DNA of 20,534 nucleotides from positions 1 through 20,534 of the IMG/VR virus record IMGVR_UViG_3300042868_001058; one strand, 5' to 3'. Below the pieces are notes generated by a model, which was not told the origin of the DNA, did not search any database, and was given only the letters and a program-made list of their open reading frames with translations. Position 1 is the first letter of the stretch. The number at the start of each line of letters is the position of its first letter. Source of the stretch: a virus. Positions 2-17,949 of this stretch are shown one piece after another. The position numbers and the translations under genes were made by a program.

Positions 2-172
2 CATGTCGAGGAAGTGAAGCGTCTTCAAATCTTGTTGAACAGGACGCGGGAAGAAGTAGCCCGTGACTACGTTACGCGGGCCGACATGCACACCGACATG
101 AACCGGGTCATCTCGCGGCTGGACAACCTCGACAAGAAAATCGACGAACTGATGCGGAGCCTTGCCAAATGA
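2..172 (+). CDS. Coiled-coil small phage protein, 5' end outside the window
   Basis: An open frame enters from the left edge and ends at TGA 170-172, leaving 56 residues. The visible part is highly charged and heptad-like, with a tract around TREEVARDYVTRADMH and a C-terminal helix rich in Asp, Lys and Leu (ISRLDNLDKKIDELM). No membrane segment lies in this part; one could lie upstream. The stop overlaps the next start as ATGA at 169-172, so translation of the lipoprotein gene is probably coupled. Short coiled-coil proteins of this style are common near phage lysis genes, but I do not recognise a defined function. The missing N terminus could make it a tethered coiled coil. Confidence 0.7.
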   Translation, partial: HVEEVKRLQILLNRTREEVARDYVTRADMHTDMNRVISRLDNLDKKIDELMRSLAK

Positions 173-384
173 GACTAGCACTCGTCCTCTTGGTTGCTGG
201 CTGTGGCCCTGTTAGTGTGTCGTCGGTGGCCTACACGACGGCCTGCCCAGAGGGGGACCGCCAGTGCGAAATCAGACAGAACGCAGAGACGCTCTACTAC
301 ATGAGCCATGTGGACGCGGCCAACGCTCTGATGTGCAGCGGAGACGCACGGGATACTATGGGGGCGCTCTGCTCTGTCTACTGA
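169..384 (+). CDS. Small lipoprotein (putative outer-membrane lipoprotein)
   Basis: The product is 71 aa. It begins MRLALVLLVAGC, a very short n-region and hydrophobic stretch ending in the lipobox VAGC with Cys12 as the predicted lipidated residue. The mature part (about 60 aa) has four more cysteines, so disulphides in the periplasm are possible. The start is the ATG of an ATGA overlap with the preceding gene. The last 52 bases overlap the preferred start of the next exported protein. A small lipoprotein close to an endolysin suggests an o-spanin. Against that, it lacks the Pro-rich linker usual for o-spanins, and the signal peptide is unusually short. Its role is unassigned. Confidence 0.6.
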   Translation: MRLALVLLVAGCGPVSVSSVAYTTACPEGDRQCEIRQNAETLYYMSHVDAANALMCSGDARDTMGALCSVY

Positions 385-1046
385 CAGCCACCGCCAACGC
401 CCAAGTCACTGGCGATCTGAACACCAACAGCGGCAACACCAACTCCACCATCGACAGCAATAACGTCTCCACCAGCGAAACGCGGAACTATAACGGTTCC
501 GGCTCTGCCCCGTTCTCGACGCCAGTGCCGACAGCAGCCGCTCCGACAGTCATGGGCGGCGGCGGTAACGACTCCTGCCTGATCCCGACGCAACAGGCTT
601 TCCAGATCAGTATCTTTGGCAAGGCTGAGGGAAGCATGGAGCAAGACCCTGAGTGCAACCGTCGAAAAGACGCTCGTCTACTCGGTACGCCGCAGGAGCA
701 AGGCGGTCTTGGTCTGCAAGTCAGCGGCATTTCAGTCATGTGCGACAACCCGGACATATTCAAAGCTATGGCTTTAGCATCGACGCCCTGTCCGATCTAC
801 AGCATTGAGTCAGGCAAGTTGCTGGTAGGCCGCGAGGGCTACATGGCTATGCGTGACAATCCGCATATTTATGTGGTAGGATACGCCCAAGACACGCCCT
901 TTTGGGACACATTCCTTCGCATGGGAGAGGAGCTGCCCGATGTTCTGCCTCAAGAAAACAGCGGCCCTACTTTGTCTGAGCGTTTCCGCCGCTCACGCCG
1001 AGCCAACGATGAACAACCTTCAGGGGTCGGCCCAGACAATCCTTGA
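333..1046 (+). CDS. Exported Asn/Thr/Ser-rich protein with four cysteines, unknown function
   Basis: This product is 237 aa if started at GTG 333. The frame is also open from GTG 264, which has a G-rich stretch upstream. I prefer 333 because it gives a good Sec signal peptide: a basic start QRRR, a hydrophobic stretch GGALLCLLTATA and the cleavage site ANA before Gln. Next comes a region rich in Asn, Thr and Ser (VTGDLNTNSGNTNSTIDSNN), then a Pro/Ala/Gly linker, then a domain with four cysteines (near DSCLIP, DPEC, VMCD and TPCP) that could form two disulphides. The tail is Arg-rich. The last 107 bases overlap the next exported gene in another frame. The N-terminal repeats recall adhesive or amyloid-like secreted proteins, but no family can be named. 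Confidence 0.68.
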   Translation: MQRRRTGYYGGALLCLLTATANAQVTGDLNTNSGNTNSTIDSNNVSTSETRNYNGSGSAPFSTPVPTAAAPTVMGGGGNDSCLIPTQQAFQISIFGKAEGSMEQDPECNRRKDARLLGTPQEQGGLGLQVSGISVMCDNPDIFKAMALASTPCPIYSIESGKLLVGREGYMAMRDNPHIYVVGYAQDTPFWDTFLRMGEELPDVLPQENSGPTLSERFRRSRRANDEQPSGVGPDNP

Positions 1047-1689
1047 CCAGCTCGCAGCGGCGCAAGACCTGTCGGTCGGCGCGGTCTACAGCGCGGGGCA
1101 GGGTGATATCCTTGCTCCCGGTGTCATGCAGGATGCTGCTATCACTGAGCAAATGCGCCTCGACTACAACTCTGACTTACAGGGGGTAATCGACGCGACC
1201 TACTATAACGCCGAAATGCTGTTTCAGGATCAACACGAAGCAGCGATGGCAAATCTGGATACGGCTGTCGATAACCTCGTTGCCGCAACTGCGGTTTTGA
1301 TGGAGGTGCAGGTGGTCGCCAACATGGCGGCTAATGCTGACACTGTAACTGAGCAGCTTGCCGTGCAAGCCGTCCTGACCAACAACGACATGTCGATCAG
1401 CGCCGCCGATGTCAGCAACTACAACACTGCTCTCGGCGCTGTGCAATCCTACGCCCGCGACGCTGGTGCCTTCTTGGCTGCCTCGCGCAATGCCAGCATG
1501 ACCAGCACTGTCGATGCCTATGCTGCTAACACCAGCACCAGCTTGTATGGCGCTACCGTTGCTTACTCTGCCACGGCTGACATCATCAACATCAGCGCAG
1601 GCAACGCCTTCGGGTTGGGCTTTCAAGGCTTCCTTGGCAACAACGTAGTCACGTTGTCTGAAGTCTACGCCGCAGGCTACGGCTCGTGA
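940..1689 (+). CDS. Exported Ala-rich protein, unknown function
   Basis: The product is 249 aa. A strong ribosome site (GAGGAG, about 7 bases upstream) supports ATG 940. The N terminus MFCLKKTAALLCLSVSAAHA is a classic Sec signal peptide with AHA before the cut. The mature protein has no cysteine. It is rich in Ala, Asn, Thr and Val and looks mostly helical through about residue 210, ending in a Gly-rich stretch (NAFGLGFQGFLGNN). It starts inside the end of the preceding exported gene. Its stop overlaps the next start as GTGA at 1686-1689. I do not recognise a domain. Its neighbours suggest a periplasmic or outer-membrane role, perhaps during lysis. Confidence 0.78.
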   Translation: MFCLKKTAALLCLSVSAAHAEPTMNNLQGSAQTILDQLAAAQDLSVGAVYSAGQGDILAPGVMQDAAITEQMRLDYNSDLQGVIDATYYNAEMLFQDQHEAAMANLDTAVDNLVAATAVLMEVQVVANMAANADTVTEQLAVQAVLTNNDMSISAADVSNYNTALGAVQSYARDAGAFLAASRNASMTSTVDAYAANTSTSLYGATVAYSATADIINISAGNAFGLGFQGFLGNNVVTLSEVYAAGYGS

Positions 1690-2117
1690 GCGAAGAAGCT
1701 GAAACCACTGGCCTGAAAATTGCGGGCTTTGACATTAAGGGATGGTGGTTCGCTGCCGCCGTTCCTGTCTTGTCTGGTATCAGCGGCACGATCTACTACG
1801 GCTACGATGTCGTAAACAGGTTCTGGGGCGTCGAGGAAAGCGTTGCAGAAGTTCTGGATGTAGTCAGCCGAGTGCAAACTCTTGAGCAGGCGATCCAAGA
1901 CAATGACGTGCGCGGCCTCGCTCCCAAACTGTCGGCAATCTCGACCCAGATGGCAAGCATCTTGGAGCAGCAGAAAGAGCTGATGGACCTGCGGTCGATG
2001 GTCGAAAAGTCAGACAGCGTGACCAGCGGCATCGAAGGCAAGCTGGAAAAATATGACGCTGAGATTGAAGACCTGTGGAAAGCTATGGACGACCTGATAA
2101 GGAACCCGATGCAATGA
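1686..2117 (+). CDS. One-TM coiled-coil protein, i-spanin-like
   Basis: The product is 143 aa and starts at GTG 1686, overlapping the previous stop (GTGA). A short N-terminal cytoplasmic part is followed by one membrane segment at about residues 19-40 (WWFAAAVPVLSGISGTIYYG). Residues 50-137 form a charged coiled coil ending LEKYDAEIEDLWKAMDDLI. This layout, an N-terminal anchor plus a long periplasmic coil, is that of inner-membrane spanins (Rz-type). The lysis-type context agrees, but sequence homology to Rz is not evident to me. The alternative is a structural membrane coiled coil of the exported-protein cassette. Confidence 0.62.
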   Translation: MSEEAETTGLKIAGFDIKGWWFAAAVPVLSGISGTIYYGYDVVNRFWGVEESVAEVLDVVSRVQTLEQAIQDNDVRGLAPKLSAISTQMASILEQQKELMDLRSMVEKSDSVTSGIEGKLEKYDAEIEDLWKAMDDLIRNPMQ

Positions 2118-2305
2118 AGACGGAATACCTGATCTGGGCTGGCTTCGCCGCTATCGTCGCCGTGACTTTCTATCTGTCCGGCGACGGATTTTATCGCTAT
2201 CCATGCCAAGACCCAGCCAACTGGGCTGCCTTGGAATGTACGCCGCCGATTTGCCTGCGCACTGGCATGTGCGCCACTGACTTGACTGGAGGAGCGACAC
2301 AATGA
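2114..2305 (+). CDS. Small membrane protein with Cys-rich periplasmic tail
   Basis: The product is 63 aa, starting at the ATG of an ATGA overlap (2114-2117). An in-frame ATG at 2075 would add 13 charged residues and overlap the upstream gene more, so I reject it. Residues 5-21 form one membrane helix (YLIWAGFAAIVAVTFYL). The tail has four cysteines in the order YPCQDPANW, LEC, PPIC, GMC, which would sit in the periplasm and could be disulphide bonded. From memory, short phage proteins with a YPCQDP-type motif are widespread, but I cannot verify this and no function is known to me. The next gene overlaps it by ATGA. Confidence 0.65.
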   Translation: MKTEYLIWAGFAAIVAVTFYLSGDGFYRYPCQDPANWAALECTPPICLRTGMCATDLTGGATQ

Positions 2306-2583: not shown

Positions 2584-2783
2584 TCGGACGCATGGTTGGG
2601 ATGCTTGTTGGCCGCAAGCTGAAAGAGAAGGCCGTGGACGCCGTTCTGGACAAGGTAAATCTGCCTGATCCAGTCGAAAACGCGATTAAAATCGCTGCCA
2701 CTGGAAACGTAGGCGACCTTATCGGCGGCGACGCCAAAGAGGAATTTGTGAAAGCCGTAGTCAAAAAGGTGAAGAAGAAATGA
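2580..2783 (+). CDS. Small basic protein, unknown
   Basis: The product is 67 aa. It starts MIGRMVGMLVGRKLKEKAVD and ends with the strongly basic tail FVKAVVKKVKKK. The N terminus could form an amphipathic helix, so peripheral membrane binding is possible, but there is no clear transmembrane segment. It is held between the holin-like gene and the endolysin by ATGA overlaps at both ends, which argues that it is expressed and belongs to the same unit. No domain is recognised. A lysis accessory role is only inference from position. Confidence 0.55.
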   Translation: MIGRMVGMLVGRKLKEKAVDAVLDKVNLPDPVENAIKIAATGNVGDLIGGDAKEEFVKAVVKKVKKK

Positions 2784-3628
2784 GCTTGCTGACTGAGGCC
2801 CAACTGGCTGCGATGATCCCGACCAACAAAGAGATCAAGGCTTGGTGCGAGGAACTGAACAAGGCGCTGCCTAAATACGACATCACCACAGATCAGCGCA
2901 TCGCTGGCTTCATCAGTCAGTGCGCGCATGAGTCAATGGACTTCAACGCTCTGTCCGAGAACCTGAACTACCGCGAAGAAACGCTGAACAAGGTCTTTCC
3001 TCGCTACTTCGGCCCCGGCAAACGCAACGCCGCCGAGTACGCCCGCAATCCTGAAAAGATCGCCAACTACGTCTACATGGACGAGTTTCGCACCTCGAAG
3101 CTAGGCAACGTGCAGCCCGGTGACGGCTGGCGCTTCCGTGGCCGTGGCCTGAAGCAACTGACTGGGCGGGACAACTACACCCGCTTTGCCAAAGACTACA
3201 ACATGACTGCGGAGCAGGCAGCAGAGTGGCTGGAAACCAAAGAAGGCGCTTTGGCCTCGGCTTTGTGGTTCTGGAACACCAACAAGCTGAACGCCATCGC
3301 AGACACTGGCAACGTGGCCGCGCTGACCAAGAAGATCAACGGCGGCGACATTGGTTTGGCTGACCGTCAGGCGCGCTATACGAAAGCTATGGCTGCCTTG
3401 GGCGGCAAGATCGACGCTGCCGCACCTGTGACTACGGCTGTCTCTGAGACGCTGCGCCGTGGCTCGAAGGGCGAAGCAGTCAAGAAAATGCAGGCAAAAT
3501 TGGGCCTCTCTGCGGACGGCGATTTCGGTCCCGGCACTGAAGCGGCGCTGAAAAAGTGGCAGTCAGCAAATGGTTTGACTGCTGATGGTGTAGCTGGACC
3601 TAAGACGTTGGCTAAACTGCTCGCCTGA
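2780..3628 (+). CDS. Endolysin: GH19 lysozyme/chitinase-like domain plus peptidoglycan-binding domain
   Basis: The product is 282 aa. Residues 1-205 match the glycoside hydrolase 19 fold used by many phage endolysins: the AHES motif gives the probable catalytic Glu51, with Glu60 (LSENLNY) a likely second acidic residue, followed by WRFRGRGLKQLTGRDNY and ALWFWNTNKLN. Residues 226-281 are a PG_binding_1 domain (LRRGSKGEAVKKMQAKLGL, DGDFGPGT, DGVAGPKTLAKLL). It should cut the glycan strands of peptidoglycan at lysis. There is no signal peptide, so release would need the nearby holin. It starts by an ATGA overlap and closes the envelope and lysis block. Confidence 0.93.
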   Translation: MSLLTEAQLAAMIPTNKEIKAWCEELNKALPKYDITTDQRIAGFISQCAHESMDFNALSENLNYREETLNKVFPRYFGPGKRNAAEYARNPEKIANYVYMDEFRTSKLGNVQPGDGWRFRGRGLKQLTGRDNYTRFAKDYNMTAEQAAEWLETKEGALASALWFWNTNKLNAIADTGNVAALTKKINGGDIGLADRQARYTKAMAALGGKIDAAAPVTTAVSETLRRGSKGEAVKKMQAKLGLSADGDFGPGTEAALKKWQSANGLTADGVAGPKTLAKLLA

Positions 3629-12660: not shown

Positions 12661-14733
12661 TCAGGAAGCGAAGCGCCTGACATGGAAGAACCGCACAAGG
12701 GGAAGCCCGCTGCGGTTCGATCCTGTCTCAATTGTGATATTGTAACCACCATCTGTATTCCGCCCATTCGGCGGGAAGATGTTGGCGTAGAAGGCACTCA
12801 GATCGACAGCGTTTGAGCGCAGCGCCATTTGGCGGTCATAGAGGCCAGTGCCTGCCAGCTTCTCTTTCAGGTGGTCGTGGACAGTGCGCGCAGACCATGA
12901 GCCTGTGCCAAGGTCCGCAACAGCGTCAAAGAGCGGCTTGTAGGTCATTTCCATACGCAGGGCCACGACAGCCTCGTCTTCGCCCTCTGGCACGATCCTG
13001 ACGCCCGGTAGAAGCACTGGCGCTGTGATGGTGTAGCCTTGGTTGCTGACGCCTAGCGTCTCAGTCACGATGTCGAAGGTGAACACCTTGTCGTCGTCGA
13101 TAGAGCGGGCCATGAGGATGCGCAGTTCGAGCTGGTCCGTCTCTTGGTTCCGAGTCAGCGTCAGCAGCGTGTCTGGTTCAGCCTGAATGTTGCTGGAGCC
13201 ACGGGGCTGGTTCCCGTTTTTCGTGTTGTGGTGGATGATGACAATGGCGGCTTTAATCTCCGCGTCTCTAATCTTGGCGATGATGTCGAAGACTGCCGAC
13301 GTGTCCTCGACGCTATTCTGATCGCCACCCGGCATTGCCTTAGTCAGCGTGTCGATGACGATCACGCCCAGTGATTTCTCGCCTTGTTTCTGCCACCACA
13401 CCTCTGTCGCTTTGATCTGCTCGACCAGATTGATCCGCGAAGTCTCGTCCAGCAGGTTGAGGCTTTCCTCGACTGTGAAGAACGGGAAGTTATTGTGGTC
13501 TGTGTAAAGGTCGCCCGCAGGGTCGTGATACTTCCGCCATGCCACAAGGCGCTTTTTTATCGCAGTCTGGCTTTCAAGGGCGAAGTAGAGGACAGGGCGG
13601 CGCTCAGTGACAGTCAGGTTGTCGTCGAAATTTAGCCCAGCAGCGATGTGCATAGCCAAAGTCTGACTGACCAACGTCTTTCCGGCTTTCGGATCGGCGG
13701 AAATCAGAGTGACTTCGCTGGCGTGGTAGATCGGGTGCATGATAAATTCCTCAGTCAGAACGTCCAGCTTCTCGAAGCCGAAGTAGCCGCGCTTGTTGGC
13801 GAAGGGGAAGTCATCGCCGTAGGCGTCGGCGCGCACGATGGGAAGCTGCGACATTTCATTGCGAACAGCCGGGAACATCGCCGCAGCCATCTGCTTGATC
13901 GTGTCTGTCGCTGCCTCACGCAGTTCTTCCGTCTTGGCGGCGACATTGTATTTGGCGTGGCCGCTGCTGACGATCCGAGTCAGTTCGCCGCCCTTGTCGG
14001 CCATGATGGGCTGCCAACGGTCGTGGCGCGGGTGCTGCGGGTTGGCGGCGACCGATGCCTGCATCAACTCCATCACGGCGGCTTGGACGCGAACCAGCGG
14101 CTCTCCCCCGGCAGACAGCTTGGCCGCGATCTGGGTCAGGCTGTCGTGGAAGTCATCACCAGTCAGGACGTTCTGGCGCAGCACGTCCAGCGTCGTCGCT
14201 GACTGCGCGGCTCTGGCGGCTTTCAGGCTCTCGACCAGTGCGGCAGGCGCAGTTGCCAGCCCCTCGCGCTCAATCGTGTAGCCCGGCGACGGCGGCAGAA
14301 CGATGTAGCCGCCCTCGCCTTTGACTTCGACGCCCTTCGACGGCTTGCAGTTCGGAAACTCCTTGGCGCGGAACAGGTAGTGCCGCCCGCCATTCCGCGT
14401 GGCGTGGACGCGGGTTTGCGGCAAGAGGCCAGCCCGTTCCAGATCGGCCACATACGCCTTCGCAGCAGCGCCTGCGTCACCTTCCTTGTAGGTGTCCGCG
14501 TCGATAGCGAACAGCCCTGCCTCTGCGCCCATGCGGCCACCAATGCCGTGCAGGCGATTGCCCGCAGCCTTGAACATGGCCGTGATAGCGTCAGGGTCAG
14601 TGCTGGCGTCATAGAAGCCGTTTTCCGTCAACGGGCGCTTGTCTTCGCCTGTCGGGAACACCGGGACGCCAGCCTCGGCCCACTCAATTGCTGCCTCAAT
14701 AAGATCAGCGACAACAGACTTCTGCATGTTCAT
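12661..14733 (-). CDS. Bifunctional primase-polymerase fused to RepA-like helicase
   Basis: The product is 690 aa. Residues 10-165 look like a prim-pol domain: WAEAGVPVFPTGEDKRPLT, then GLFAIDAD with metal-binding Asp78 and Asp80, GGRHYLFRA with His118, and VEVKGEGGYIVLPPSPGY with acidic Glu136. Residues 320-550 are a RecA-fold ATPase of the RepA/AAA_25 kind: Walker A SADPKAGKT (345-353, Ala in place of the first Gly), YFALES with Glu387, Walker B VIVID ending at Asp461, and IIHHNTK at 499-505. The C-terminal 80 residues may be a winged helix. It should prime and unwind phage DNA. It starts by ATGA overlap with the resolvase gene. Confidence 0.88.
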   Translation of the reverse strand: MNMQKSVVADLIEAAIEWAEAGVPVFPTGEDKRPLTENGFYDASTDPDAITAMFKAAGNRLHGIGGRMGAEAGLFAIDADTYKEGDAGAAAKAYVADLERAGLLPQTRVHATRNGGRHYLFRAKEFPNCKPSKGVEVKGEGGYIVLPPSPGYTIEREGLATAPAALVESLKAARAAQSATTLDVLRQNVLTGDDFHDSLTQIAAKLSAGGEPLVRVQAAVMELMQASVAANPQHPRHDRWQPIMADKGGELTRIVSSGHAKYNVAAKTEELREAATDTIKQMAAAMFPAVRNEMSQLPIVRADAYGDDFPFANKRGYFGFEKLDVLTEEFIMHPIYHASEVTLISADPKAGKTLVSQTLAMHIAAGLNFDDNLTVTERRPVLYFALESQTAIKKRLVAWRKYHDPAGDLYTDHNNFPFFTVEESLNLLDETSRINLVEQIKATEVWWQKQGEKSLGVIVIDTLTKAMPGGDQNSVEDTSAVFDIIAKIRDAEIKAAIVIIHHNTKNGNQPRGSSNIQAEPDTLLTLTRNQETDQLELRILMARSIDDDKVFTFDIVTETLGVSNQGYTITAPVLLPGVRIVPEGEDEAVVALRMEMTYKPLFDAVADLGTGSWSARTVHDHLKEKLAGTGLYDRQMALRSNAVDLSAFYANIFPPNGRNTDGGYNITIETGSNRSGLPLVRFFHVRRFAS

Positions 14734-15254
14734 GCCTTGGACCCAATTTCATCCCAGTAGCGGGCGATCAGCAGGGACTCTGCGCGATTGTGATCCTTCT
14801 TGCGCGTGAACAAGTCAGCGCGATCCGGCCACAGCTCCAGCGCCCGCAGACGCGCAGGCTCCTTGGGGTTTTGCAGAGTGACTTGGATTTTCATAGCGGG
14901 CTTCCAGACGCTAGGCGGCACGATGCGGCACTGCATCCGCAGACCGTGGCAGATGCCCTCAGTCAGAAACATCGACCCGACGAAGGGGATTCCCGCGCTC
15001 AGGCTCTCGTTAGGGCGGATGGTGACGCGCTCAATCACCACCATAGGCGTGTAGCCCAGCGCCGCCGCCTCGGCTTTCAGACCGCGCAGGATATTCGTAA
15101 TCAGCGCGGCTTGGTTCACCCAAGAGGCAGTCTTGCGGCCAGCCTTCACAAGCTGGACAGCGACTTCCTCGTCGCTGAAAGTATTGAGGGGTTCGCCCTC
15201 GACCAAGACGCCAATAGTCAGCGGCGATCCGGGGTCAATTCCGATGGTAAACAT
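14730..15254 (-). CDS. RuvC-like Holliday junction resolvase/RNase H-fold nuclease
   Basis: The product is 174 aa, close to the usual RuvC length. FTIGIDPGS gives Asp7, MVVIERV gives Glu75, and KKDHNRAESLLIARYW gives Asp154 and Glu159. These match the four acidic positions of the RuvC fold, with Glu at a place normally held by Asp. It probably cuts four-way or branched replication intermediates before packaging. AAGGAG lies 9-10 bases upstream of ATG 15254. The stop overlaps the primase-helicase start (ATGA), and the polymerase gene lies upstream, so it sits in a replication operon. Confidence 0.82.
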   Translation of the reverse strand: MFTIGIDPGSPLTIGVLVEGEPLNTFSDEEVAVQLVKAGRKTASWVNQAALITNILRGLKAEAAALGYTPMVVIERVTIRPNESLSAGIPFVGSMFLTEGICHGLRMQCRIVPPSVWKPAMKIQVTLQNPKEPARLRALELWPDRADLFTRKKDHNRAESLLIARYWDEIGSKA

Positions 15255-15355
15255 GGTCAGGTTCTCCTTAGCAGACGCTCAGTTTGTCAGTTCTTAGTGT
15301 GTCTGTGAAGCCACGGAATATGGTGTGGTCAGCACCCCGGCTACACAAGCTGTAG
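15255..15355 (-). promoter_or_regulatory. Leader of the resolvase/primase unit with repeated ACTGACA-type elements
   Basis: This 101-base gap carries no gene. On the - strand it holds ACTGACAAAC (15291-15282) and ACAGACACAC (15306-15297), each one change from the ACTGACACAC seen in two other - strand leaders. It then has the ribosome site AAGGAG. A short inverted repeat CTACA/TGTAG lies near 15340-15355. No convincing -35/-10 pair is visible. A regulatory role is inferred from the recurrence only. Confidence 0.35.
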
Positions 15356-17149
15356 TTATGGCTTCGCCGCCCACGACTGGCCGACTGCGCTTTCGCTCAA
15401 ATTGGCGGTTTCAGAGCCGGGGAAAATGTCCAGCCAAGCCTGCCGCATTTCTTCCACCATGATTTCCCGCAGTTCTTCGCCGCGCCCAGCCTCGGCCAGC
15501 ATCAGCAGTTCGTCATGCACAGAGGCCAGCATCCGCGACGCGAAGGGCAGTTCCCAGACCTTCTTACTCATGCGCGTCACGGCGCGATACATCACGTCAG
15601 CAGCCGCGCCTTGGATCGGGTAGTTGGACGCCACGGGCAGCGACCGCTCGTTTTTGTGGACGAAGACAGTGCGGCCAGACTTGATGGGCAGCAGCCCGGT
15701 GGCGTTCATCTGATCGAACATGCGGTAGCGCAGCGCGTAGGCTTGCGGATACCGCTCGGCCCACTTCTCCACAAACTCGCCTGCCTCGGCGTCAGAGCAG
15801 CGCAGAACCACGGCCAGAGCAGCGTTGCCAGCGCCATAGGTAAGCTGGAAGCTAAACGCCTTGGCCTTGGACCGCATTTCCTTGGCGCGTGGGTCTTTGG
15901 CTTTCAGCCGCGCCTTGAAGTCGTCGGCGGGGACACGGAACAGCGTGATGGCCGACTCGGCGTGAACGTCTCCGAAGATCACGTCCTGCTTGAGCTGCCA
16001 GTCATTGCTGACTTCTGCCAAGACACGCAGTTCGATACCGCTGTAGTCGGCCAGCACCATGTCCGTCTCGGGCGGGGCGATGAAGGACCGCCGCACCATC
16101 GGGTTGCGCGGAATGTTCTGAAGGTTCGGGTTCGACGAGGAGTAGCGGCCAGTCACCGCCTGCGCGATGTTGAAGCGCCCGTAGACGCGCCCTGCCAAAA
16201 TCTGCTTGGTCAGCAGCGTCTCGCCGTAGGTGCCTAGATACTTCTCAGCGCGGTTGAACACCATCAGCGCCGCCAGCCAGCGCGAGAACGGGTAGGGCGC
16301 ACGGAATGACGCCTGCCGCAGTTGCTTGCGGTCGGTTTGCAGTTGCTCGGACTTGTCCGTCTTGGGCCACGCCCGCAGGCTAGTCTCGTCCAGCACAGCC
16401 TTGATGAAGTCAGAAAGTTGCTTTTTGGACCGCAGGTTCGCAATAATCGTTTCTGGCGTGTATTTACGCAGCGTCTTCTCAGCGGCGTCGCGGCGCAGCG
16501 TCCACATGTGGATCAGGCGGCTATGGTGCCGCTCGTCGATCAGCATCCCCGTGTCTTCCATTTCCGCCGTGCCGCGCCATGCATCGTTGAGGACGCGGAA
16601 ACCAGCCCATTGCGCAGTAGTCAGCGTTTTCTGCCACAGCTTAAAGAGTTCGTAGGTGTCCTCGGCATCCTCGAAGCCGTAGTCGTATTGCTCCTGCGAC
16701 AGCGCAGCCACCGACCAGTCAGAGGTTTGCAGGTGCTTGTTGTCGCGGACCTTGCCCAGATCGCGCTTCACCATGTCGGCCAGCGACAGCGGGCGACCGC
16801 CCAGCTTCGCCTTCGACATAACACCAACGTCGTAGAGGACGACATCAGGCCCATCAGTGCCGTAGTCGAACCAGCGCCCCTCGAAGCCTGCGTTGAACAC
16901 CGCCCACGGGCAGGCGTCGGCCAGCAGCGTCGCGTAGTCGTTGAACGGCGCGCAGTGCAGATGATCGAAGACGTAGCTGCCAGTAGGCCCGCAGATGCAG
17001 GTCAGCCGCACGTCAGCCTCACCGGGCCGCAGTCCAGTCGTCTCGAAGTCGAGAGCGTGAGCCTGTCCAGACTCAGCGATAGCGGCGATGATTTGGAGCG
17101 CCTCGGAATGTGTAGTAACAAGGCGGTATTGACGGGAAGTCCCAGCCAT
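15356..17149 (-). CDS. polA: DNA polymerase I, family A, with 3'-5' exonuclease domain
   Basis: The product is 597 aa, without the 5' nuclease domain of cellular Pol I, as in many phages. Exonuclease motifs: DFETTGL (Asp34, Glu36), FNAGFEGRW (Asn86) and YGFEDAEDT (Tyr157, Asp161). Polymerase: TGRYSSSNPNLQNIP at 333-347, motif A LADYSGIELR (Asp368), motif B from Arg426 through Lys430 and Phe434 to Tyr438, and motif C VHDEL (His545, Asp546). Phe434 is the counterpart of E. coli Phe762. All catalytic residues are present, so it should be an active proofreading replicase. AAGGA stands about 9 bases before ATG 17149. A hairpin terminator lies just upstream. Confidence 0.95.
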   Translation of the reverse strand: MAGTSRQYRLVTTHSEALQIIAAIAESGQAHALDFETTGLRPGEADVRLTCICGPTGSYVFDHLHCAPFNDYATLLADACPWAVFNAGFEGRWFDYGTDGPDVVLYDVGVMSKAKLGGRPLSLADMVKRDLGKVRDNKHLQTSDWSVAALSQEQYDYGFEDAEDTYELFKLWQKTLTTAQWAGFRVLNDAWRGTAEMEDTGMLIDERHHSRLIHMWTLRRDAAEKTLRKYTPETIIANLRSKKQLSDFIKAVLDETSLRAWPKTDKSEQLQTDRKQLRQASFRAPYPFSRWLAALMVFNRAEKYLGTYGETLLTKQILAGRVYGRFNIAQAVTGRYSSSNPNLQNIPRNPMVRRSFIAPPETDMVLADYSGIELRVLAEVSNDWQLKQDVIFGDVHAESAITLFRVPADDFKARLKAKDPRAKEMRSKAKAFSFQLTYGAGNAALAVVLRCSDAEAGEFVEKWAERYPQAYALRYRMFDQMNATGLLPIKSGRTVFVHKNERSLPVASNYPIQGAAADVMYRAVTRMSKKVWELPFASRMLASVHDELLMLAEAGRGEELREIMVEEMRQAWLDIFPGSETANLSESAVGQSWAAKP

Positions 17150-17180
17150 TCTAATCTTCCTTCAGGTCTTAGCAGAGCCT

Positions 17181-17229
17181 TGCTTCTTTCGAGAAGCACA
17201 AAGCCCCCGGTTTGGTCGCCGGGGGCTTT
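17181..17229 (-). terminator. Tandem hairpins, rho-independent-type terminator after the 237-aa gene
   Basis: Six bases after the TGA of the - strand gene, AAAGCCCCCGG and CCGGGGGCTTT form a perfect 11-bp stem (17200-17210 with 17219-17229, 8-base loop). A second stem follows in - strand order, TGCTTCT with AGAAGCA (17181-17187 with 17192-17198), with TTCG as loop on the + strand. The T-run is short (TTT then GTGC), so read-through into polA is likely. The GC-rich stem could work in either direction. Confidence 0.72.
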
Positions 17230-17235
17230 GCAGTT

Positions 17236-17949
17236 TCAGAGGACGCCGCGACGGCGGCGGGCAGGAGCAGGCAGAGAACCGCCTTCTGACTGGCGCACCA
17301 GTTCGTCGATGTCAGCTTCAGGATCGGCAGCCAGTTCGCCCACAGCTTCCTGCGAGAGCCAGCCGTAAACGTCCAGCTTGGGCTTGTAGTTTTTCTGCCC
17401 TTGGGCTTCAAACTTCTCCTTGCCCATGCGGACCAGCGGCCAGCAGGCACGGCCAGCGCGCAGACGCTCGGCCACTTGCGACTGCAAGTCAGCAAAGACG
17501 GCTACGCCTGACTTCGAGTTGATCTTCCAGTAGCCCTGACGGTCATCTGCCTCAATCGACTTGACGACCATCGACTTCGCCGGGAACCAGCCTTCGCCTT
17601 GGGCGGCGTTGAACGGCCCCATTTCGTCGTGCGCAGGGGTAGCAATGTGCTGCCCGCTGTAGATGTTCGCCATGCGGGTAGCGACGGTCTTGCCGCCCTT
17701 CCAGCAGACGAAGCCTTCCTCGAAGGAAGCGATGTTGACCAGCCAAATTTCGGACGGGTCCAAGTCTTCCTTGTCCTTGCCAAATTCGTAGACGCCGCGC
17801 TTACCCGTGAAGTTCAGGTAAACCGAACCATCGGGGGCGCTGCCAATCTGGCCTTGGGCTGCGGAGTTAGTCAGCGCGTCGGCCATAGCCTGCGCGTTGT
17901 TGAGAGCGACGGGTTTGCCAAACGGCGAGTTGACGAGTTCGTTAGACAT
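17236..17949 (-). CDS. Unidentified replication-module protein, possible ssDNA-binding role
   Basis: The product is 237 aa. AGGAG lies 8 bases before ATG 17949. The sequence is soluble with no signal peptide: VYLNFTGKRGVYEFGKDKED at 43-62, SFEEGFVCWKGGKTVATRM at 75-93, GYWKINSKSGVAVFADL at 139-155 and a basic-aromatic stretch ending KPKLDVYGWL at 198. An acidic patch (DPEADIDELV) precedes a final RRRRGVL. Length and many aromatic and basic residues would suit an OB-fold ssDNA-binding protein like T7 gp2.5, and it lies between nuclease and polymerase, but no such motif is proven. Unlike gp2.5 it ends in basic residues. A terminator-like hairpin follows. Confidence 0.72.
   Translation of the reverse strand: MSNELVNSPFGKPVALNNAQAMADALTNSAAQGQIGSAPDGSVYLNFTGKRGVYEFGKDKEDLDPSEIWLVNIASFEEGFVCWKGGKTVATRMANIYSGQHIATPAHDEMGPFNAAQGEGWFPAKSMVVKSIEADDRQGYWKINSKSGVAVFADLQSQVAERLRAGRACWPLVRMGKEKFEAQGQKNYKPKLDVYGWLSQEAVGELAADPEADIDELVRQSEGGSLPAPARRRRGVL

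Follow-up and report, generated by a model that had tools for sequence, protein, structure and literature searches.

Overlapping genes for exported proteins form a candidate spanin-like envelope module in aquatic phages

Results

The window, that is the whole stretch of DNA analysed here (G000; virus record IMGVR_UViG_3300042868_001058, 20,534 bases), carries on its plus strand a module of genes, which we call A, B, C and D, together with the following neighbouring features.

2..172, plus strand: tail of p1, a small inner-membrane protein (transmembrane segment and coiled coil, predicted), cut by the window edge
169..384, plus strand: gene A, 71-aa lipoprotein with lipobox VAGC, mature form about 60 aa
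249..257, plus strand: Shine-Dalgarno-like AGAGGGGGA, preceding GTG 264, the start of B
264..384, plus strand: A/B overlap, 121 nt (52 nt if B starts at GTG 333)
264..1046, plus strand: gene B, exported protein (predicted signal); signal to about 401, Asn/Thr/Ser-rich stretch 402 to about 540, four-cysteine domain about 576-800
925..932, plus strand: Shine-Dalgarno GAGAGGAG of C, inside B, 7 nt upstream of C
940..1046, plus strand: B/C overlap, 107 nt, encoding the C signal peptide and the B C-terminus
within the B/C overlap, plus strand: basic tail of B, RFRRSRR
940..1689, plus strand: gene C, 249-aa exported protein, signal MFCLKKTAALLCLSVSAAHA followed by EP
1686..2117, plus strand: gene D, N-terminal transmembrane helix, coiled coil and C-terminal NPM/NPL motif
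2114..2305, plus strand: 63-aa membrane protein, four cysteines after the transmembrane segment
2302..2583, plus strand: 93-aa holin-like protein with two transmembrane segments (topology by inspection), PHROG 25359 (function unknown)
between the 93-aa gene and the endolysin, plus strand: 67-aa protein
2780..3628, plus strand: endolysin, PHROG 181, GH19/chitinase-like, with a PG_binding_1 domain

An earlier note, made from the sequence of this window, had described three exported proteins encoded one after another in overlapping frames. The three consecutive out-of-frame ORFs A, B and C do lie at this position, and the overlap of about 107 bases claimed for B and C is exactly 107 nt (940-1046). 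The long n-region of B and the greater part of the hydrophobic core of the B signal peptide are encoded within the A/B overlap. The p1 stop and the A start share ATGA (4-nt overlap), the C stop and the D start share GTGA, and the usual 4-nt overlaps are found among the D, 63-aa, 93-aa, 67-aa and endolysin genes.

The full-length form of p1, a transmembrane segment followed by a coil, is seen in CRP-810 (gp54) and MW202675 (647-889), and p1 matches PHROG 462. It is not universal, being absent upstream of A in CRP-207. Its versions are clearly distinct (50-100% identity; window 2-172 and L024, L073, L075, L076) and it sometimes lies about 600 nt from A, so that p1 seems to be exchanged independently of A-D. 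The 63-aa membrane protein (window 2114-2305) carries the motif PCQDP..C.PPIC..TGMC. It shares 61% identity over 36 aa with a protein of Actinomycetia phage DSL-LC01, so that it may represent a small mobile family. At 12661-17949 (minus strand) the window carries replication-like genes opposing the late genes, with primase/helicase-like, RuvC-like and DNA polymerase I-like ORFs.

The A/B overlap of about 52 bases given in the earlier note corresponds to a B start at GTG 333, and is more likely 121 nt. The equivalent of the 333 start is absent in at least ten relatives (L009, L011, L020, L030, L066, L070, L071, L076, L080, L081), and B therefore probably starts at 264. A start at the 264 position is present in every relative, and an SD-like motif (AAAGGTGA or AAGGGAGA) precedes the B start in relatives. 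We rejected the conserved 264 start as stand-alone evidence, as its constancy is partly forced by the conserved Gln-Cys of A (CAR followed by TGY gives RTG); the real evidence is the missing 333 start together with the avoidance of stop codons reported below. The Shine-Dalgarno of C is likewise retained in relatives, as GAGGAG or GAGGAA.

A scan of viral contigs with B gave 157 relatives, of which the best 80 were taken; a profile search with B gave at least 572 relatives and another scan at least 547. Of the 84 close loci examined, 81 have a B/C overlap of exactly 107 nt, and A is 71 aa long in all close loci except a few that are cut or divergent. In 74 additional loci, down to 30-60% protein identity, the A-B-C overlaps are kept wherever the contig covers them, with B/C overlaps of roughly 70 to 170 nt; among relatives as a whole, overlap lengths range from about 43 to about 176 nt. 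The same nesting is found in the cultured relatives CRP-810 and CRP-207 and in the complete genome MW202675. In the CRP-207-like group mature B opens with a conserved VTGD-type motif, and A stops only 2 nt before it; the whole B signal peptide is therefore nested in A. In pelagiphages, B and the gene downstream of it hardly overlap. The nesting is thus old and has been kept, and its length is not fixed.

The packing of A with B and of B with C is more than chance. Synonymous recoding of B left the C frame open in 54% of trials, and both open and with a hydrophobic core in 3.3%; for A/B, the corresponding values were 26% and 15%. All 68 real sequences pass these criteria for B/C, and all 68 for A/B, although they are mutually related and so are not independent trials.

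To describe selection on the overlapping frames, substitutions were classed on a tree of 68 unique sequences by Fitch parsimony, which is approximate, and the expected numbers were taken from the rates at fourfold sites. Within the B/C overlap, changes silent in B and altering C were observed 82 times against 371 expected (0.22), and changes silent in C and altering B 148 times against 349 (0.42); 22 changes silent in both frames were observed against 13 expected. Outside the overlap, silent changes stood at about 1.0-1.1 in B and C. The depletion of cross-frame changes indicates that both B/C frames are coding and that their proteins are constrained. Both frames are under purifying selection, the C signal being constrained more, and the codon-level comparison proposed by the earlier note thus came out with two conserved frames rather than one. 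The A/B overlap behaves differently in its two parts. At 264-332, changes silent in A and altering B are not depleted (1.27), so the B residues are free there, but A-silent changes that would create a stop in B are depleted (0.23) and no extant sequence has a stop there. Taken with the missing 333 start, this stop avoidance indicates that translation of B begins at 264 and that its long n-region is free to vary. The rates at 333-384 are low throughout (0.59 and 0.38), which makes the comparison a weak test. In the highly divergent CRP-207-type group, the Asn codon that gives the ATG of B is AAT in 16 of 17 sequences, against a background of 42%.

Standard gene calling drops or truncates A, B and C, their export signals being nested in other genes. 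The deposited annotation of MW202675 (L082) has a truncated B and lacks C, that of CRP-810 (L083) lacks A and has C without its signal, and that of CRP-207 (L084) lacks A and has a shortened C.

The export signals themselves are kept across the family, as lipoboxes or signal-peptide-like starts; with the two constrained B/C frames, neither of the refuting outcomes named in the earlier note was obtained. The signal of A, MRLALVLLVAGC, has 11 residues before the cysteine (family range 11-27), and a lipobox is present in A of all checkable family members except one (LCSC, L125). A has four further cysteines, spaced C-x6-C-x22-C-x11-C, and the family reads C..C-[QE]-R-N..AQTL..IG..EAA..LMC..D....C after the lipid cysteine. 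B has a hydrophobic core and an AxA-like site, GGALLCLLTATANA followed by QV. It belongs to or near PHROG 20531, of unknown function (E 1.3e-6; pelagiphage B E 5.7e-9), and its pelagiphage relatives carry C..C-ERxKxARxL..GMKVAAVxxLCQDxRVF..M...GTPCP. Profile alignment with hhalign matched A to pelagiphage-type B at 95% probability (score 50.3) and to window-type B at 91% (score 41.2), against maxima of 13.5 and 17.3, respectively, for column-shuffled A profiles; A against C gave 0.1%. On these profiles A and B are paralogs with a common four-cysteine domain.

The predicted structure of C (pLDDT 92.9) consists, in the mature form, mostly of long helices with a small C-terminal sheet. Foldseek against the PDB returned nothing for C at E <= 0.001, a fold search in BFVD returned only uncharacterised phage proteins, solved-structure searches with the B profile and with C found zero relatives, and bacterial genomes searched for close relatives of C gave none. 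Resemblances of C to HlyD and AhlB were rejected, being weak fold matches due to coincidences of long helices (TM about 0.2). An AF2 model of B (pLDDT 58.6), with a beta-hairpin predicted before the cysteine domain, was not relied on; the fold matches of this low-confidence model are phage proteins of unknown function. D directly follows C in all 55 divergent loci that offer enough sequence, with a transmembrane segment in 52 and an NPL-like tail in 51, and its predicted topology is i-spanin-like. Comparison of A-D with PHROGs, Pfam and NCBIfam found no characterised spanin, holin or other family: A has no Pfam family at E <= 1 and is assigned to none, and C and D lack a convincing one. The CRP-810 annotation names D a lysozyme, for which its sequence gives no support, and B an OmpA, which Pfam does not support for the B of the window.

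D is the fourth member of the module, so that the unit is A-B-C-D; neither its membership nor the A/B paralogy figures in the earlier note. In pelagiphages HTVC023P, HTVC033P, HTVC202P, Baldr, Mosig and AP013540, and in several MAG contigs, the gene after B encodes C', a large exported protein unlike C; either directly or one or a few genes further on comes a D-like gene whose product has the NPL tail as well. The core of the module is B-C-D; among the loci inspected A is restricted to a Roseobacter-type group, and the pelagiphage form lacks it. In complete MW202675 and CRP-810, a scan for a Shine-Dalgarno and a lipobox under simple rules found a single lipoprotein, A; in CRP-207, A was recovered only with looser start rules.

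In the window the order is A-B-C-D, the 63-aa membrane protein, the holin-like protein, the 67-aa protein and the endolysin, and the same endolysin lies about 2.2 kb after B in 58 of 81 close relatives (downstream sequence reaches 2.5 kb or more in only 57 loci). L325, a contig in an Opitutales MAG, has a holin-like gene, B, C, D and a Peptidase_M15_3 endolysin; in Mosig a GTA_holin_3TM gene adjoins B-C'-D; and HTVC023P has the order B-C'-x-D-M15. AP013540 (Autographiviridae) has B-C'-D between the tail fibre and the large terminase, and it is between these genes that the holin and spanin genes of T7 are located. Divergent loci often have a tail fibre or other virion genes upstream and terminase, endolysin or holin downstream, terminase being the next recognised gene in many. 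The usual position of the module is thus within or beside lysis genes, or else between tail fibre and terminase. In CRP-810 the module lies beside the tail fibre, about 24 kb from the holin and the GH108 lysozyme.

The B domain also occurs elsewhere. Two Hyphomonadaceae chromosomes (L334:4101-5396 and L335:4317-5402) encode exported proteins in which very long Asn/Thr/Ser-rich repeats lead up to a terminal B four-cysteine domain, and have no C or D beside these genes; they could be a cellular source or a domesticated copy. A B relative of Achromobacter phage phiAxp-2 (Casjensviridae; L315:3699-4256, minus strand; profile E 5.7e-10) lies beside a Gly/Ser-rich exported protein in a minus-strand cluster of small genes away from the structural genes.

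Discussion

Long out-of-frame gene overlaps are known in phages, as in Rz/Rz1. The closest comparison for the module is the two-component spanins (lambda Rz/Rz1, P2 LysB/LysC, T7 18.5/18.7; PMC6139136), whose o-spanins are small lipoproteins with up to four cysteines; their genes are often overlapped, and gene callers often overlook them (Kongari et al. 2018, PMC6139136). Like them, A is a small lipoprotein with cysteines and an overlapped gene, D is a predicted inner-membrane protein with an N-terminal transmembrane segment and a coiled coil, the neighbourhood is usually one of lysis genes, and the overlapped genes escape annotation. In the two-component spanins, however, the lipoprotein gene overlaps that of the i-spanin, whereas A overlaps the gene of the secreted protein B, which in turn overlaps C; B and C stand between A and D; there is no sequence similarity; and the module has two extra exported components, one of them a paralog of the lipoprotein. 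A subunit with a lipobox (A) and one with an N-terminal transmembrane segment and coil (D) are both predicted. The gene adjoining A is p1, which is not universal, and D, which is universal, does not adjoin it. The module stands in a lysis cassette in the window and its close relatives, L325, Mosig and HTVC023P, and does not in CRP-810; and no similarity of A-D to a known spanin family was found in PHROGs, Pfam or NCBIfam. With this topology, mixed location and lack of similarity, we do not file the module as a two-component spanin.

From its usual position in or beside lysis genes, the module probably helps to break or alter the bacterial envelope. We propose that A-B-C-D is a spanin-like envelope-disruption module of lytic aquatic phage, a reading that we consider evenly balanced between right and wrong. 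A would be an outer-membrane lipoprotein, corresponding to the o-spanin part, and D an inner-membrane-anchored coiled-coil protein, corresponding to the i-spanin part; B, as a larger secreted paralog of A, and C, as a helical secreted protein, would be periplasmic partners. The four proteins would be made late, through overlapping and re-starting translation, and would act jointly on the cell envelope at phage exit. The constrained B/C frames, the A/B paralogy, the conservation of A-B-C-D, the linkage to lysis genes and the position of A as the sole lipoprotein in the scans of MW202675 and CRP-810 all count for the spanin-like reading. Counting against it are the distance of the CRP-810 module from holin and lysozyme, the terminase, rather than an endolysin, that comes next in many divergent loci, the absence of A from the pelagiphage form, the short signal of A and the lack of a match to any characterised family, although spanins are very diverse and missing similarity is therefore weak evidence. 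The suggestion of the earlier note that the products could build a complex in the periplasm or outer membrane, serving lysis or a change of the cell surface, fits the gene neighbourhood and the predicted topology of D.

The main rival to the spanin-like reading is superinfection exclusion, or a shielding of progeny from receptors on debris, in which the module would alter or block the cell surface. A would then do what T5 Llp or Cor does, attaching from the periplasmic side to an outer-membrane protein, and the secreted B and C would assist it. T5 Llp is a periplasmic protein that is lipid-anchored at Cys1 and has a Cys11-Cys58 disulphide (PMC9586334), and A resembles Llp and Cor in being a small putatively lipidated protein with cysteines capable of forming disulphides (mature form 60 aa, lipid Cys1 and four further Cys). 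The module is also near tail-fibre genes in some loci, as are Llp and Cor; many loci have tail fibre and other virion genes upstream, and the CRP-810 module adjoins the tail fibre, away from holin and lysozyme. Yet in most loci inspected the module is in or beside lysis genes, a partner of spanin-like topology, D, is always present, and A is conserved together with B, C and D in a late-gene setting, whereas Llp-type systems are single genes expressed early. Pfam showed no sequence match to Llp or Cor. We regard exclusion as unlikely.

A further reading, in which B and C would be secreted to the surface or into a matrix as amyloid or adhesin-like proteins and so alter the aggregation of infected cells, seems to us highly improbable. 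It draws on the curli/type VIII secretion genes of pelagiphages and related marine phages (PMC9599517, PMC7029224, PMC9004378), which likewise encode exported proteins, on the Asn/Thr/Ser-rich N-terminal stretch of B and on the Hyphomonadaceae repeat proteins that end in the B domain. But the gene order differs, the B relatives of Mosig and HTVC023P are separate genes without an assigned function, C and D are unlike T8SS components, and the module is linked to lysis genes. Homology to curli was rejected, there being no CsgA, CsgB, CsgF or CsgG similarity in A-D and no Csg among the Pfam and PHROG matches of A-D and of pelagiphage B and C'.

The long overlaps may have no role of their own, reflecting genome compaction with translational re-initiation, which is compatible with any function of the proteins; we give this an even chance. 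It agrees with the lack of amino-acid constraint in the B n-region at 264-332 (1.27), with the Arg-rich tail of B, a frame-shifted reading of the Ala-rich cleavage region of C, and with overlap lengths that vary between relatives. Against it, both B/C frames matter (0.42 for B-changing and 0.22 for C-changing substitutions), stops are avoided even at 264-332 (0.23) and the nesting has persisted over large divergence. The fixed stoichiometry or order of export that the earlier note read from the overlaps is not upheld, as the lengths run from about 43 to about 176 nt and pelagiphage B hardly overlaps its neighbour; compaction with translational coupling is enough. The overlaps are probably compaction with translational re-initiation.

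B resembles PHROG 20531 and unannotated marine phage proteins, none with a known function, and we know of no precedent for the four-gene arrangement A-B-C-D. Our searches turned up no earlier description of the double nesting of export signals, of the A/B paralogy or of the A-B-C-D or B-C'-D module. It is possible, though we would not call it probable, that A-B-C-D (B-C'-D in SAR11 phages) is an unrecognised multi-component envelope-disruption system that replaces Rz/Rz1, built on a duplicated four-cysteine domain, with one lipid-anchored and one secreted copy, and on a secreted helical protein, the export signals lying inside the genes that come before. SAR11 and Roseobacter-type phages are among the most abundant marine viruses, yet for most of them we know of no described means of opening the outer membrane. 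Hundreds of environmental phage contigs carry the module, which is common to many marine and freshwater phages, and A-D are named candidates for outer-membrane opening in the cultured phages CRP-207, CRP-810, HTVC023P and Mosig.
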